From: Promethearchaeia archaeon
GTDB lineage: Archaea > Asgardarchaeota > Lokiarchaeia > Sigyniarchaeales > SOKP01
Direction: 5' to 3'
Assembly: GCA_029856125.1 (NCBI GenBank)
Contig: JAHQWJ010000136.1
Span: 21,514-85,513 of the forward strand
DNA: 64,000 nt
Shown here: piece after piece, positions 18,398-26,623 of the stretch
Numbering within the stretch: position 1 is the stretch's first letter
Layout: the number at the start of each line of letters is the position of its first letter
Made by a program: the position numbers and the translations under genes
Notes under the pieces: generated by a model
The model's input: only the letters and a program-made list of their open reading frames with translations
Told to the model about the DNA's origin: nothing
Database searches by the model: none

Positions 18398-19726
18398 ATG
18401 ACCGAAGTTTTTATATCAGATACAAAAATGGGTGTTAGTAAGGCTGTAAATGAAATCTTTTCAAACTTAATGCGAACTGGACCAATCTTAAAAAGCTCAA
18501 AAGAAGTCTATATTAAGGTAAATGGAATTGATTCTAAGAAACACGCATACACATCGCCCGAAGTACTTAAAGAGGTAATAAAATATCTTGGAGATAAAGG
18601 TGCCAAGATTTATGTAATGGAGAATTCTACTCAAGCTAACATGACTCGAATTGTATTCGCAATCACTGGCTTTAAAGATGTATGTGATGAAACTGGCGCA
18701 AATATAATATACTTAGACGAAGAGGATACGGAAATTTTTGAATTTAAAGGGAAACCTTCTGTAAAAGATAAATCGAAGGGATATAACCTAAAAACTTTTA
18801 GATTGCCTAAAACCATCATTAAAATCATGAAAAATAGGGATTCAATCACTTATATAAATCTTCCTAAACTTAAAACTCATTCAATGGCAGGAGTAACGCT
18901 TGGAATAAAAAATCAATGGGGATTTCCCCAGCATGCTGATCGTGGAAAAGATCATAACTATAACCTACATTCAAAATTAGTAGATGTGTATGAATATATT
19001 AAACCAGACATAACGATTATTGATGGAATTGAGGGCACAATTCATGGGCATTACCCTCCTACAGCGTGGGAGGATCGACTAGTTAAACATTTTAACATTT
19101 TAATAGGTGGAAGAGACACCTTAGCTGTAGATGTCGTTGGAGCAAGGATCTTTGGTTTAACCTTAGACGATGTCCCTCACCTTAAAATAGCTAACAAGAG
19201 AGGATTGGGAGAAGGGGATTTAAGTAAAATTCAAGTAATTGGTAAAAATTTAGAAGAATTTACAGAGAAATACCAATGGGATTTACTACAAGAGTTCCCT
19301 GAGAATGTTATGATTGTGAAGGGCACTGAATTATTATGTAGAGAGGGTTGCCAAAACAATCCCTTAGCTACTTTACAAGTATTTGCTTATGATCATAAAA
19401 AGAAATTCAAAGGAGGATGGTTTTTAGTCATGGGCAAAGGACACGACGAAAATCTTGTAGAAATTTTGAAGGAAAAAGGTTTTGTCAAAGGTTTAGTAGC
19501 AGGATATTGTGCTATTGATGAGGTGGGTGAACAACTTCGGAACGAATTCGGGAAACGTAAAGTTTTTTTTTCTGGTGATTGCAATAATTTAGCTGACACA
19601 GTAAAAGCAATTCTCAAATTATCAAAAATGACCGTTTTTGATTTAGTATCACTTTCCACCGAAGAATTAATGTCCCTTATTGATAGTGCTAAGGAACACG
19701 GCAGTACCGCTTTAGTTCCATTGTAA
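18398..19726 (+). CDS. DUF362 domain-containing protein
   Basis: VYIKVNGIDSKKHAYTSPEVLKEVIKYLGDKGAKIYVMENST, NLPKLKTHSMAGVTLGIKNQWG typical DUF362. Confidence 0.85.
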   Translation: MTEVFISDTKMGVSKAVNEIFSNLMRTGPILKSSKEVYIKVNGIDSKKHAYTSPEVLKEVIKYLGDKGAKIYVMENSTQANMTRIVFAITGFKDVCDETGANIIYLDEEDTEIFEFKGKPSVKDKSKGYNLKTFRLPKTIIKIMKNRDSITYINLPKLKTHSMAGVTLGIKNQWGFPQHADRGKDHNYNLHSKLVDVYEYIKPDITIIDGIEGTIHGHYPPTAWEDRLVKHFNILIGGRDTLAVDVVGARIFGLTLDDVPHLKIANKRGLGEGDLSKIQVIGKNLEEFTEKYQWDLLQEFPENVMIVKGTELLCREGCQNNPLATLQVFAYDHKKKFKGGWFLVMGKGHDENLVEILKEKGFVKGLVAGYCAIDEVGEQLRNEFGKRKVFFSGDCNNLADTVKAILKLSKMTVFDLVSLSTEELMSLIDSAKEHGSTALVPL

Positions 19727-19829: not shown

Positions 19830-20573
19830 ATGGATTTTGAATCAAAATATTTTGATATAAGACAATTCCTCTCTATTTCTGAGCTAGAATTTAACTTGGA
19901 TAAAAAGATTGATGAATATTTTAATTCAGATAGTCTTAAGATGGAAATTTTAAGTAAGATAACCCAATTTATCTATTATTTTTCAATTTTTAAGAATATC
20001 AAACCTTTTATGAATTCTGTATATTATTGCATAGAAACTACTTTAGATCTTGGAGTTGAATCCGTAAGTGATTTTAAAGAGCTTCTAGTAAAAAATGCCT
20101 TGATGAAATTTGTTCAGGAATATATTGATTACGCTCAATTAACACAAAAAAGACAAGTATTAAATCTTTTATCAGATTCATTTGAGAAACTTCAAATTCA
20201 GCCTTTAATTATTAATTTAGGGTTACTTCTTAAGCCTATGTATCAAGATAAGGATTATCTTGATAGAGCAAATAAGAATAAGGATGTAAAAATCTCTTAT
20301 TCCCTTCTTAATGAGATTGAAATTAAAATTAAAACCATTATTGATGATTGGTTGAAGGCTCAAGCTATTGCATTAAACAATCAGGATGAAATTAAAAAAG
20401 AATTGGGAAAAAAATATGAGGATTTAGCGAGTAATTTTAAAATTATTAAAGGCTCTGATATATACAAAAAACTTTTCAGGGAAATAATGGAAATGCTCTC
20501 AATGAGACTTACTATGATTAGTTTAACGGAATCGATATCGGACGATTCATTTGAACCTATCCCAATAAAATAA
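19830..20573 (+). CDS. Unknown, predicted mostly alpha-helical protein
   Basis: Long ORF with coding-like composition; no motif recognised. Confidence 0.6.
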   Translation: MDFESKYFDIRQFLSISELEFNLDKKIDEYFNSDSLKMEILSKITQFIYYFSIFKNIKPFMNSVYYCIETTLDLGVESVSDFKELLVKNALMKFVQEYIDYAQLTQKRQVLNLLSDSFEKLQIQPLIINLGLLLKPMYQDKDYLDRANKNKDVKISYSLLNEIEIKIKTIIDDWLKAQAIALNNQDEIKKELGKKYEDLASNFKIIKGSDIYKKLFREIMEMLSMRLTMISLTESISDDSFEPIPIK

Positions 20574-20742
20574 ATACCTAACTTAAAGTTCTGATTGTTG
20601 TTCCATTCCATAATTCTATGTTTTTAAAAATTGGAATAATTTGAACATTTAAGATATTGAAATCTATTAAATCGTAGATAAGTAAATTATTAAATACAAA
20701 TTTTGATATTATATTTAAAAAAAACAATAATTTACTCCTAGT

Positions 20743-22224
20743 GTGAGAAAATTGGAAGAAAACGATAAACCTTTAACCCCCGAAGAAATAGAGAAACAGA
20801 AAAAGATTGTAGATGACCTATACAGAAAAGAAAAAGAAGATAGAGAAGATTACTTCAAGAGCTTCGAGGAAGAACGAAAAATTGCTTTTGAAGAGAGCAA
20901 AAATCTTATATCCTCATTAATATCAGAGAAAAGCTTCATGAGAGAAAAAAAAAGAGAACAAGATTTAATAAGAATGGAGATCAAACCTGAAATCGAAAAA
21001 GCAAGTGAAGCGATTGAAAAATCCATAAGTGAAAAAGCTTTTTTGAGAGAGAAACACAGAGAAGAAGATCATATAAGGATCGATCTAAAACTGGATATTA
21101 GAGGGGTAGGTGAAGCAATAAGTAAGACTGTTGACGATAAAGCTTTTTTAATTGAAAAAAGGAGAGAATCTGATGAACACAGAATGAAGATCAAACCTAA
21201 CATTGAACATACAGGAGAGGTAATCAGTAAAAATATTGACGAAAAAGCTTTTTTAATAGAAAAAAAGAAAGAGAGCGCTTCGGTATTGCTAGATTTAAAA
21301 CCGGACACGCAAACTGCAAGCAATGCAATTAGTAAATCCATAGAGGAGAAGTCTTTTTTAAGAGAAAAACAAAGAGAAAGCGATTTCAGTAGGATGCAGA
21401 TCAAACCAGATTTTCTGAAAACGGGTGAAGCAATAAGCAAAACCATTGCTGAAAAAGCTTTTAGAATTGAGAAAAGAAAAGAGATCGAACAGAAAAAAAT
21501 AGAAATACATCCAGATATTGAAGGCAAAGGAGAGGCAATAAAGGCAACTATTAACGAAAAAGCATTTCGGATTGATATGGAAAAAGATAAAGAACGAAAA
21601 ATAAAAGATATGAAACCAGACACAACCAAAGCCGGAGAATCTATAGCCCAATCTATTGGAACAAAAGCTTTTCTACGCGAAACGCATAGAGAAAAGGATT
21701 TTGAGAGAATAGATTTGAAACCAGATTTCTTAAAAACTGGAAATGCAATTAGCACTACAGTAGCTGAAAAAGCTTTTAGAATGGAAAAAAGTCGCGAAAT
21801 TGACGAAAAAAAAAGTGAACTAAAACCTGATATAAAAAAAACCGCAGAATTAATTAGCAAATCTATAGAAGAAAAAGCTTTTTTAAGAGAAAAGCACAGA
21901 ATTGAGGATTCTAAACGAATGGAAATAAAACCAGACATAACAAAAGCGAGCCAAGCTATTAAATCTTCAATTGACGATAAGGCGTTTAGAATTGAGAAGC
22001 AAAAAGAGATGAACCAGAAAAGAATGGAATTAAAACCAGACTTTGAGAAATCTAGCGACGCTATTCAAAAAACAATTGGGGAGAAAGCATTTATTATCGA
22101 AAAACAAAAAACACGCGATTCAGAACTAATAGAACTTAACCCAGATATTAAAGGTATTGGTTCATTAATCGAAGGAAAGATTGAAAAAATTGAACAGAAG
22201 AAAAAAGACGAGAATACTACTTAA
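20743..22224 (+). CDS. Highly charged 35-residue repeat protein of unknown function
   Basis: 493 aa = 80 + 11x35 + 28; consensus KPDxxKxxEAIxKxIxEKAFxxEKxRExDxxRMEI without indels. GTG start. Confidence 0.8.
   Translation: MRKLEENDKPLTPEEIEKQKKIVDDLYRKEKEDREDYFKSFEEERKIAFEESKNLISSLISEKSFMREKKREQDLIRMEIKPEIEKASEAIEKSISEKAFLREKHREEDHIRIDLKLDIRGVGEAISKTVDDKAFLIEKRRESDEHRMKIKPNIEHTGEVISKNIDEKAFLIEKKKESASVLLDLKPDTQTASNAISKSIEEKSFLREKQRESDFSRMQIKPDFLKTGEAISKTIAEKAFRIEKRKEIEQKKIEIHPDIEGKGEAIKATINEKAFRIDMEKDKERKIKDMKPDTTKAGESIAQSIGTKAFLRETHREKDFERIDLKPDFLKTGNAISTTVAEKAFRMEKSREIDEKKSELKPDIKKTAELISKSIEEKAFLREKHRIEDSKRMEIKPDITKASQAIKSSIDDKAFRIEKQKEMNQKRMELKPDFEKSSDAIQKTIGEKAFIIEKQKTRDSELIELNPDIKGIGSLIEGKIEKIEQKKKDENTT
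20983..22137 (+). repeat. 11 tandem in-frame 105-bp repeats (35 aa)
   Basis: Exact 35-aa register from KPEIEKAS to the residue before NPDIKGIG; AAGCTTTT recurs in many units. Confidence 0.9.
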
Positions 22225-22255: not shown

Positions 22256-22759
22256 CTATAATTGGACATCAAATTTGAATAAAGTATTTAAATTCATATT
22301 TTCTAATCTTTTTTTATATTGTAGAATTGAAGGGTCTACATTTCCATTAAAGTTCCTTATTGCAGATTCGAACCTATAGTAAAAATCTTCCATAATTTGA
22401 TGTAAAATTACTCTCTCTACTTGTAAATTGGTTTTTTTCGAAATCGCAATCACTGATAATCTCCCTCTCCTCTCGTATAAAATTCGACTCTCTTTAAAAT
22501 TCACTTCTTGAATCTCATCGTTCATTGATTCAGGTTTAATCTCACTTATAAAAAGATTAAGAGCGTTAAGAAACCCACTTATCAAATCTTCATGAGAAGA
22601 AAATTTAGCGTTGCGCGTATATTTTTTGCTAAGCAGTAATGAACCACTTATATTGTCTAAGAAGTAAATCGCGTGAAAACGATTATCGTCTGAATTAAAT
22701 CTATCGATATTAAATCCATACGTTTTTTCTGAATTTCTGTTAATCCATTTGTACGACAT
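22256..22759 (-). CDS. Longin/roadblock-like small protein
   Basis: AIYFLDNISGSLLLSKKYT...EDLISGFLNALNLFISEI...ESRILYERRGRLSVIAISKKTN...ILHQIMEDFYYRFESAI pattern resembles longin-fold proteins. Confidence 0.5.
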   Translation of the reverse strand: MSYKWINRNSEKTYGFNIDRFNSDDNRFHAIYFLDNISGSLLLSKKYTRNAKFSSHEDLISGFLNALNLFISEIKPESMNDEIQEVNFKESRILYERRGRLSVIAISKKTNLQVERVILHQIMEDFYYRFESAIRNFNGNVDPSILQYKKRLENMNLNTLFKFDVQL

Positions 22760-22932: not shown

Positions 22933-23406
22933 TTGATGAACATGGGTGTAAATAACAACTACGGAAAACAAAAAAATAAAATTTCTATTGGAAAAATCTT
23001 ATCAAGAGAAGATTTCAAATCCACTATCTTTCCAGAAGAAGTTAAAGTGGAAGTAAACGAAGCTCCTTATTACTTGTTAATTTTCATTTCTCGCGAAGAT
23101 TCAATAAAAATTAGCTGCTTTCCTACTAATACATATGATATAAAAAAAATTCTAATTAAGTTGATTGAGTTCTCACCTGATCTAGTGAAGGGAATATCGA
23201 CCATACTTAATGATCTTCACTTAAGTAAAGACATCCTCCATACTACGGGAATTTGTTATGAGCTAGAAAATTGCTTCTATGAAACCTATCTGTTAGGAGA
23301 TACTCTAAAATCGGGGACCATATCTGTAGACGCTATAAAGGAAAAATTCCTCGCAATTGAGAAAATTGTCAATGTCTCAATAGAAGATATTCCGATCCAT
23401 AATTAA
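22933..23406 (+). CDS. Unknown small protein, possible ACT-like domain
   Basis: IKLIEFSPDLVKGISTILNDLHLSKDILHTTGICYELENCFYETYL has ACT-like beta-alpha-beta character; weak. Confidence 0.45.
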   Translation: MMNMGVNNNYGKQKNKISIGKILSREDFKSTIFPEEVKVEVNEAPYYLLIFISREDSIKISCFPTNTYDIKKILIKLIEFSPDLVKGISTILNDLHLSKDILHTTGICYELENCFYETYLLGDTLKSGTISVDAIKEKFLAIEKIVNVSIEDIPIHN

Positions 23407-24913: not shown

Positions 24914-26623
24914 TTGATACTTATGACAGAAGAAATTATAAGACGGACAACGAGTATTTGCCCAGAATGCTTACAAACCATTCCAGCGGAGATCTATGTT
25001 GATCCAAAAACTAACTGGGTCATGATGAGAAAAGATTGTAAAGAACACGGACATTTTAAAGACAAGCTTTCCATCGATCCAGATGAATACAAATGGGGCG
25101 AAACGTTCACAGACGACATAGGATCTACAGTTGATAACTCTACTAAACCTGAATATGTTAGTTCAGGATTAAAGGAGTGTGATGAAGGCTGTCCATACGA
25201 TTGTGGCCTCTGTGAAAATCATAAAAGCGCACCTAATATATGCCTAATCGACATTACAAATCGCTGTAATTTAACCTGCCCAATTTGTTTTGCTAACGCA
25301 AGCGCAAAAGGGTATGTTGTAGAGCCTACAATCGAACAAATTTTCCAAATAATGGAACACTTCAGGTCTATGAAACCTGTTGCAGCAGTTATGCTCCAAA
25401 TATCTGGGGGAGAACCTACAATTAGAGATGATCTTCCAGACATCATCCGGGAAGGAAAAAGACTCGGTTTCTCTGAAGTTATGGTTACAACTAACGGTAT
25501 AAGGTTCGCCAAATCTATTGACTTTTTACAAAAGTGCAAAGACGCGGGAATGGACGCCATCTACTTACAATTTGATGCAACGGACGATCCTGAAGCCTGG
25601 AAAAAGGTTCGTGGCGTAAATCTATGGCCTTTAAAGAAACGCGTTATTGAAAACTGTCGAAAAATTGGATATTTTGGTTTAATGTTAGTTCCTGTAATCG
25701 CCAGAGGTGTTAACGACCACGAAATCGGAAACATTTTAGACTTTGCTAAGGATAATAGCGATGTGATTTCTGGAGTAGTTTTCCAACCTGTCTCACTTTG
25801 TGGGAGGATAAGTTTTGAAGAATTGATGGATTTGAGGTACACTACTTCAGATCTCAAGGTGGCAATAAATAAACACACAAATAATGCTATTAGAAAATTC
25901 TATCCCATCGCAACTACAGCAAAAATGACCCGCTTATTAGCTTGGTTCGATAATATGCCCGAATTTGGTATGACGAGCCATAAAGATTGTGGATTTGCTA
26001 CAATTATTATCGTTAACGATAAAGACGAATGGGAATCCCTCGATGATTATTTTGATTCAGAAGGACTAATTAAATGGTCAAATAAAGTTTATGACATGGT
26101 TCAAAAAAAAGAAATCCCGAAACCCACTGGGTTCTTAAAAGGTATAAACTTGGAAGATTTCGGAGCCGTAGCTAGTACTATTGGGAAATTTATAGACGAG
26201 ATGACTGATTTAGGATATCGGCAAATGATGAAAGCTTATTATTTTGCCGGAGGAATTAAGTTCGTAAAACATCCAGAAAAAGTCTTAACAAGTAAAACCT
26301 ACCAAAGCTTTGCTAGAATTATAGCATCTCCTAACTTAGCAAGCGCCGCGAACTTCTTGCACAACAAGAACCTTATGATTTCGGCGATGCATTTTCAAGA
26401 CGCATACAACTTCGATTTAGACAGAGTTTGTAGATGTTTAGTTCATTACGGCGTAGTAGATCCTGATGACAACTCAAAGACACTCGAAATACCATTCTGT
26501 GCTATGAATACGCTACATCGGGAAAGAATTGAGCTTGCAAACGCCATTAAAGGCGAGGAAGCTAAAAAAGCTGAAGTTATCCAAGCTGAAATTAAAGAGC
26601 TTTTAGAAACCGTAAAAGAATAA
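24914..26623 (+). CDS. Radical SAM protein, tetraether lipid synthase (Tes)-like
   Basis: N-terminal CPECLQTIPAEIY, CNLTCPICFANAS radical SAM motif, extra Cys motifs CDEGCPYDCGLC and C-terminal CRCLVHYGVVDPD...PFCAMN. Confidence 0.7.
   Translation: MILMTEEIIRRTTSICPECLQTIPAEIYVDPKTNWVMMRKDCKEHGHFKDKLSIDPDEYKWGETFTDDIGSTVDNSTKPEYVSSGLKECDEGCPYDCGLCENHKSAPNICLIDITNRCNLTCPICFANASAKGYVVEPTIEQIFQIMEHFRSMKPVAAVMLQISGGEPTIRDDLPDIIREGKRLGFSEVMVTTNGIRFAKSIDFLQKCKDAGMDAIYLQFDATDDPEAWKKVRGVNLWPLKKRVIENCRKIGYFGLMLVPVIARGVNDHEIGNILDFAKDNSDVISGVVFQPVSLCGRISFEELMDLRYTTSDLKVAINKHTNNAIRKFYPIATTAKMTRLLAWFDNMPEFGMTSHKDCGFATIIIVNDKDEWESLDDYFDSEGLIKWSNKVYDMVQKKEIPKPTGFLKGINLEDFGAVASTIGKFIDEMTDLGYRQMMKAYYFAGGIKFVKHPEKVLTSKTYQSFARIIASPNLASAANFLHNKNLMISAMHFQDAYNFDLDRVCRCLVHYGVVDPDDNSKTLEIPFCAMNTLHRERIELANAIKGEEAKKAEVIQAEIKELLETVKE

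Follow-up and report, generated by a model that had tools for sequence, protein, structure and literature searches.

The window, by which we mean the whole 64,000-nucleotide stretch of DNA analysed here, holds a gene, called REP below, which on sequence evidence is a real gene encoding a conserved protein of Lokiarchaea, built of 35-residue units in strict register that each repeat one short motif. We read REP as an elongated cytosolic multivalent scaffold that would present one docking motif about every 5 nm, and we give this reading a probability of roughly 45%; its docking, multivalency and polymer partner are what we infer, and its single helix per unit is a low-confidence prediction.

As the initial annotation had proposed, the translation of 493 residues parses exactly as 80 + 11 × 35 + 28 with an in-register extra unit: a stretch of 45 residues precedes a degenerate unit (46-80), after which come 11 exact units of 35 residues (81-465) and, at the end, a partial unit of 28. 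When we compared the protein with itself using BLOSUM62, similarity peaked only at lags of 35, 70, 105, 140 and 175 residues (1.45-1.81 per residue), the next best lag reaching -0.11 and the maximum of 200 shuffles 0.07. At the protein level the identity between units is about 45%, and Tandem Repeats Finder reported no DNA repeat over them, so the 35-residue period is not a DNA microrepeat. REP is single-copy in the genome to which the window belongs, 46% of its residues are charged, and its GTG start is retained in nearly all orthologues examined. The initial annotation was also right that neither a signal peptide nor a TM segment is visible in the translation; the envelope role that it had considered is unlikely, since no export signal is seen.

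Table 1. Coordinates (window numbering) of REP, its parts, its upstream element and its conserved neighbours, with the stand-alone relatives of its N-terminal region
Feature	Position	Strand	Remarks
REP, gene of the 35-residue repeat protein	20743..22224	+	493 aa, GTG start
N-terminal region, residues 1-45	20743..20877	+	beginning of the long helix (13-80); AF2 and stand-alone Asgard relatives
Degenerate unit 0, residues 46-80	20878..20982	+	its EKS/EKA motif marks the end of the shared N-domain
11 units of 35 residues, residues 81-465	20983..22137	+	start of unit n = 20983 + 105(n-1)
Partial C-terminal unit and charged tail, residues 466-493	22138..22221	+	
39-nt conserved upstream element	20684..20722	+	AAATTATTAAATACAAATTTTGATATTATATTTAAAAAA, 20 nt before GTG
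DUF362 protein	18398..19726	+	conserved left flank
h247	19830..20573	+	helical protein without assigned function; upstream neighbour, syntenic, not obligatory
h167	22256..22759	-	conserved right flank
h157	22933..23406	+	conserved right flank
Radical-SAM protein resembling tetraether lipid synthase Tes	24914..26623	+	synteny conserved
Stand-alone relatives of ~65 residues	L120, L121, L122 (f17); L116, L117, L123 (f10)		found with the N-terminal helix profile

That the frame was kept open by chance or is an assembly artefact, with no protein made from it, has a negligible probability. An antisense open frame of 289 aa does also cover the repeats, but a dN/dS of 0.14-0.18 against four close species, homologues in about 50 MAGs and the conservation of both the start and the upstream element speak for a protein, and purifying selection contradicts a non-protein reading. 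Nor is the repeat array an artefact of assembly, the objection raised in the initial annotation: the unit structure recurs in 30 homologues, and two of the MAGs that contain homologues were submitted as single chromosomes (CP070805 and CP070831). The long antisense open frames across the repeats (21069-21938 and 21358-21651, minus strand), the 289-aa frame among them, are not genes but a by-product of the 105-nt codon pattern. A phage origin was rejected, with no match in phage records, PHROGs or viral contigs.

Each unit carries the motif I11-x3-[IV]15-x-E17-K18-A19-F20, and the conserved positions of the unit are I/F/L4, I11, I/V15, E17, K18, A19, F20 and L/I35, together with P2 in 80% of units. 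Isoleucine 11 is found in 318 of 322 units, K18 in 308 and F/Y20 in 311; across 72 orthologous unit comparisons, positions 11, 18 and 20 show no substitution at all, and positions 9, 25, 30 and 33 are substituted in 31-39%. Since the same motif recurs in each unit, the chain would offer identical docking sites, putatively one about every 5 nm, to each of which a copy of a single partner could bind, the copies plausibly being arranged along a polymer or lattice. The N-terminal helix would be used to self-associate or to anchor the chain.

The spacing between units is 35 residues in 288 of 292 cases and 32 in the remaining 4 (30 homologues). A polymer partner would explain such exact spacing, but spacing alone is no proof of one, since neighbour genes at similar divergence show almost no indels either; for the same reason, duplication of units may by itself have passed the exact spacing on, and we rejected indel-free spacing as proof of a lattice because it is not diagnostic. 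The number of units does vary between species, a point that the initial annotation had proposed to check: the 30 homologues have 6, 8-12 or 14. Closely related species within the genus retain unit-by-unit orthology, and more distant genera have homogenised arrays with a mean inter-unit identity of up to 72% (L018), which indicates that units turn over by duplication. The higher-order duplication of three units suspected from the sequence is visible in the REP unit pair 5/8 (71% identity) and is clearer in sister species, where units 4-6 and 7-9 are 69/94-100/71% identical (L008/L009).

AF2 gave a confident long helix for residues 13-80 (pLDDT ~83-95 for residues 11-70), after which both models show, at low confidence, a single helix of ~31 residues in each unit, with breaks at K/H-P-D and no packing. 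Mean pLDDT over the units was 62 and 71, and the pTM values of 0.19 and 0.23 mean that there is no confident tertiary packing. The elongated helical protein foreseen in the initial annotation is thus what AF2 predicts, with low confidence in the units, and in the scaffold that we propose the long N-terminal helix would lead into tandem single helices hinged at K/H-P-D. The description of the units as five heptads, however, is not supported, because the 3.5-residue harmonic is weak (0.100, vs 0.233 at 3.89 residues per turn); 3.5-residue periodicity is not dominant, as it would be in a heptad coiled coil of the spectrin or tropomyosin type. Hydrophobic residues lie mainly at unit positions 4-22, and positions 23-34 are charged, not amphipathic and without a core. 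F20 points ~141 degrees away from the hydrophobic face of residues 3-22, and a single coiled-coil core would therefore not account for its conservation.

A passive rod or spacer, whose charged helices set a length or self-associate and whose motif is kept for helix geometry or weak self-association, is an explanation that we hold to be rather unlikely. The high charge, the single helices predicted by AF2 and a copy number that varies freely by whole units would all suit it, as would the N-domain, whose best periodicity of 98 degrees is of the 11-residue coiled-coil-like kind and which gives weak PDB profile matches to designed helical bundles. Conservation of K18 and F20 goes far beyond the need of a spacer, however, and the weak heptad harmonic tells against it as well.

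In Pfam, NCBIfam and PHROGs we found no family above curated cut-off that was reproducible among REP members, and a fold search of the model of L026, a six-unit homologue (the better of the two AF2 models), against the PDB gave no match at E<=10, so that the initial impression that no named repeat family matches was borne out in these searches. Scattered weak families, for example SIK3 UBA and entericidin, match subsets of the members, which we read as repeat and composition noise. The sole PDB profile matches are charged-helix proteins, the best being apolipoprotein A-IV (E=2e-4) and the others designed coiled coils, geminin and RAP1B; the A-IV match is probably compositional. PPR and TPR gave no match to REP at E<=1 and lie outside the top 25 families for 29 members. 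One match, in G113, proved to be a TPR protein and was discarded; a TPR array gave a weak match (E=3e-4).

PPR and TPR solenoids have units of 34-35 residues with a PD-type loop, and REP resembles them in its unit length and in the PD-type loop between units, although they pack two helices per unit whereas REP is predicted, at low confidence, to have one. REP might then be an alpha-solenoid of two-helix units, in which the chain turns at position 16 and the PD loop joins one unit to the next, a reading that we regard as improbable. In 227 of 322 units (70%) the residue at position 16 is G, S, D or N, as in a helix N-cap, and it could be a turn, which counts against a scaffold of single helices; the unit length falls within the TPR/PPR range, a diverged relative in family f2 apparently has units of ~37 residues, and a TPR array gave the weak match mentioned above. 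Against this, a unit has only ~8 hydrophobic positions per 35, Pfam returned neither TPR nor PPR, and AF2 predicts, at low confidence, one unpacked helix per unit.

Nebulin, one of the closest known systems, consists of actin-binding helical repeats of ~35 residues with a small motif, SDxxYK, in each unit (PMC4126377). REP is like it in having a ~35-residue unit, one predicted helix per unit, many tandem copies and a variable length, yet the per-unit motif is [GSD]-E-K-A-F and both the WLKGIGW motif and the seven-unit super-repeat are missing. The Nebulin family (PF00880) had no match at REP at E<=10 in six genomes, and the weak PF00880 matches elsewhere in the genomes also occur in control genomes. 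A further conceivable reading is that REP is a lokiactin ruler, nebulin-like and evolved independently, in which each unit would dock one lokiactin subunit along a strand and the unit number would set the length. This idea, which we treat as a long shot, comes from arithmetic, from the four actin homologues encoded in the window's genome and from the nebulin analogy: 35 × 1.5 Å gives 52.5 Å per unit (slightly more with an extended hinge), against 2 × 27.9 Å = 55.8 Å along the lokiactin strand (PMC9834061). GvpC, whose helical repeats of 33 residues are wound around gas vesicles (PMC10185304), is likewise a protein in which several tandem single amphipathic-helix repeats decorate a protein lattice. 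Its unit is 33 rather than 35 residues, however, there is no GvpC match in Pfam, and GvpA (PF00741) is absent from the five genomes searched, the window's own included.

When we searched with a profile of the N-terminal ~74 residues, two further families of the order, f2 and f4, yielded diverged repeat proteins, and families f10 and f17 yielded stand-alone Asgard proteins of ~65 residues. The f2 relative (L049, 7527-8414), read from its sequence, has units of ~37 residues and no KPD proline, from which it appears that in this lineage the length of all units changed together. The stand-alone proteins reach no further than the first I-x3-[IV]-x-E-K-A-like motif, and since they carry the N-terminal helix and one motif-like segment, the REP array probably came about when the C-terminal end of such a protein was amplified in tandem, the number of units changing later by whole units. 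G075 (f4) also has a short frame of this kind, which sits among f17-like neighbours on a 4.4-kb contig; the MAG is 9% contaminated, and the frame may be a contaminant.

The short gene of f17 sits immediately upstream of the gene for a bona fide tetraether synthase, Tes, with an inositol-phosphate synthase on its other side in G108 and G115; the neighbours of the f10 short gene are unrelated, so a lipid association is only a lead. Exchangeable apolipoproteins such as A-IV have an 11/22-residue periodicity and share with REP a proline-punctuated chain of charged helices, besides the profile similarity given above. REP could accordingly be imagined as a binder of lipid surfaces, its proline-punctuated amphipathic helices coating membranes or lipid particles, but we think the chance of this slim. 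The A-IV match, the Tes-like lipid enzyme in the conserved block and the position of the f17 relative are in its favour, whereas the amphipathicity of REP is weak (hydrophobic moment 0.214 over residues 3-34, vs 0.181 in shuffles; mean hydrophobicity -0.35) and F20 sits opposite the hydrophobic face. The company of the A-IV match (designed coiled coils, geminin, RAP1B) suggests a compositional origin, and the Tes-like gene is 2.7 kb from REP with opposite-strand genes between.

The 39-nt element upstream of REP varies little or not at all within the genus (31/39 identical in the most diverged, L011) and is 36-38/39 identical in four of five genomes compared from another genus, g8, the fifth (G060) being without it (28/39). 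Upstream regions of eight neighbouring genes in the g8 genomes are at a background level of 23-31/39, and among the nine genes tested the element is specific to REP. It is probably both promoter and regulatory site, comprising the BRE/TATA of a leaderless promoter and, ahead of these, a further site; TATATTTAAAA, ~25 nt ahead of the start, would fit a leaderless archaeal promoter. As the element remains where h247 is missing, REP is probably transcribed on its own. A regulon sharing the element was rejected: the first half has 36 genome sites, which is at chance level (34 in the control); the second half has 12 sites vs 5 in the control, a mild excess, and all other sites have 2-3 mismatches.

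Whole-genome searches placed REP in 50 of 65 genomes of the window's GTDB family, a Lokiarchaeota family, and all named relatives are Candidatus Lokiarchaeota/Lokiarchaeia MAGs, in keeping with the Asgard origin expected for this DNA. The order DUF362 - h247 - REP - h167 (reverse) - h157 - small membrane protein (reverse) - Tes-like radical SAM is kept across genera. The last of these scores 440 bits against a Tes cut-off of 450 and has a diverged C-terminal third, and its function may differ from that of Tes. The gene h247 is absent in G006, G011, G016 and G019, and in G017 it is only 61% identical, vs ~90% for the flanks, which suggests that it was replaced or is evolving fast. Since h247 and REP each occur without the other, h247 was dismissed as an obligate partner. 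Genera g2 and g7 show a clean absence of REP between intact flanks (a gap of ~47 bp separates h247 and h167 in G038), so REP is dispensable in some lineages. We assign clean absence to these two genera, and not to the g1 genomes G004, G012, G021 and G023. Some other apparent absences are contig breaks: in G018 the contig stops just past the upstream element and start codon, and in G063 inside h167, beside the REP site.

Among the papers searched, we found none that describes the REP family. Helical tandem-repeat scaffolds are a known kind of protein; what appears undescribed is this family, together with its strict geometry and the source from which it evolved. Lokiarchaea are relatives of the ancestor of complex cells, and Asgard archaea form actin filaments and have cells of elaborate shape; to our knowledge few proteins that organise either the filaments or the shapes have been identified. 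In REP, a lineage-restricted family, the spacing is unusually strict and every unit has one invariant motif; its probable origin, a small single-motif protein that was amplified, can be traced across Asgard lineages, and the family lends itself to simple binding and structural tests.
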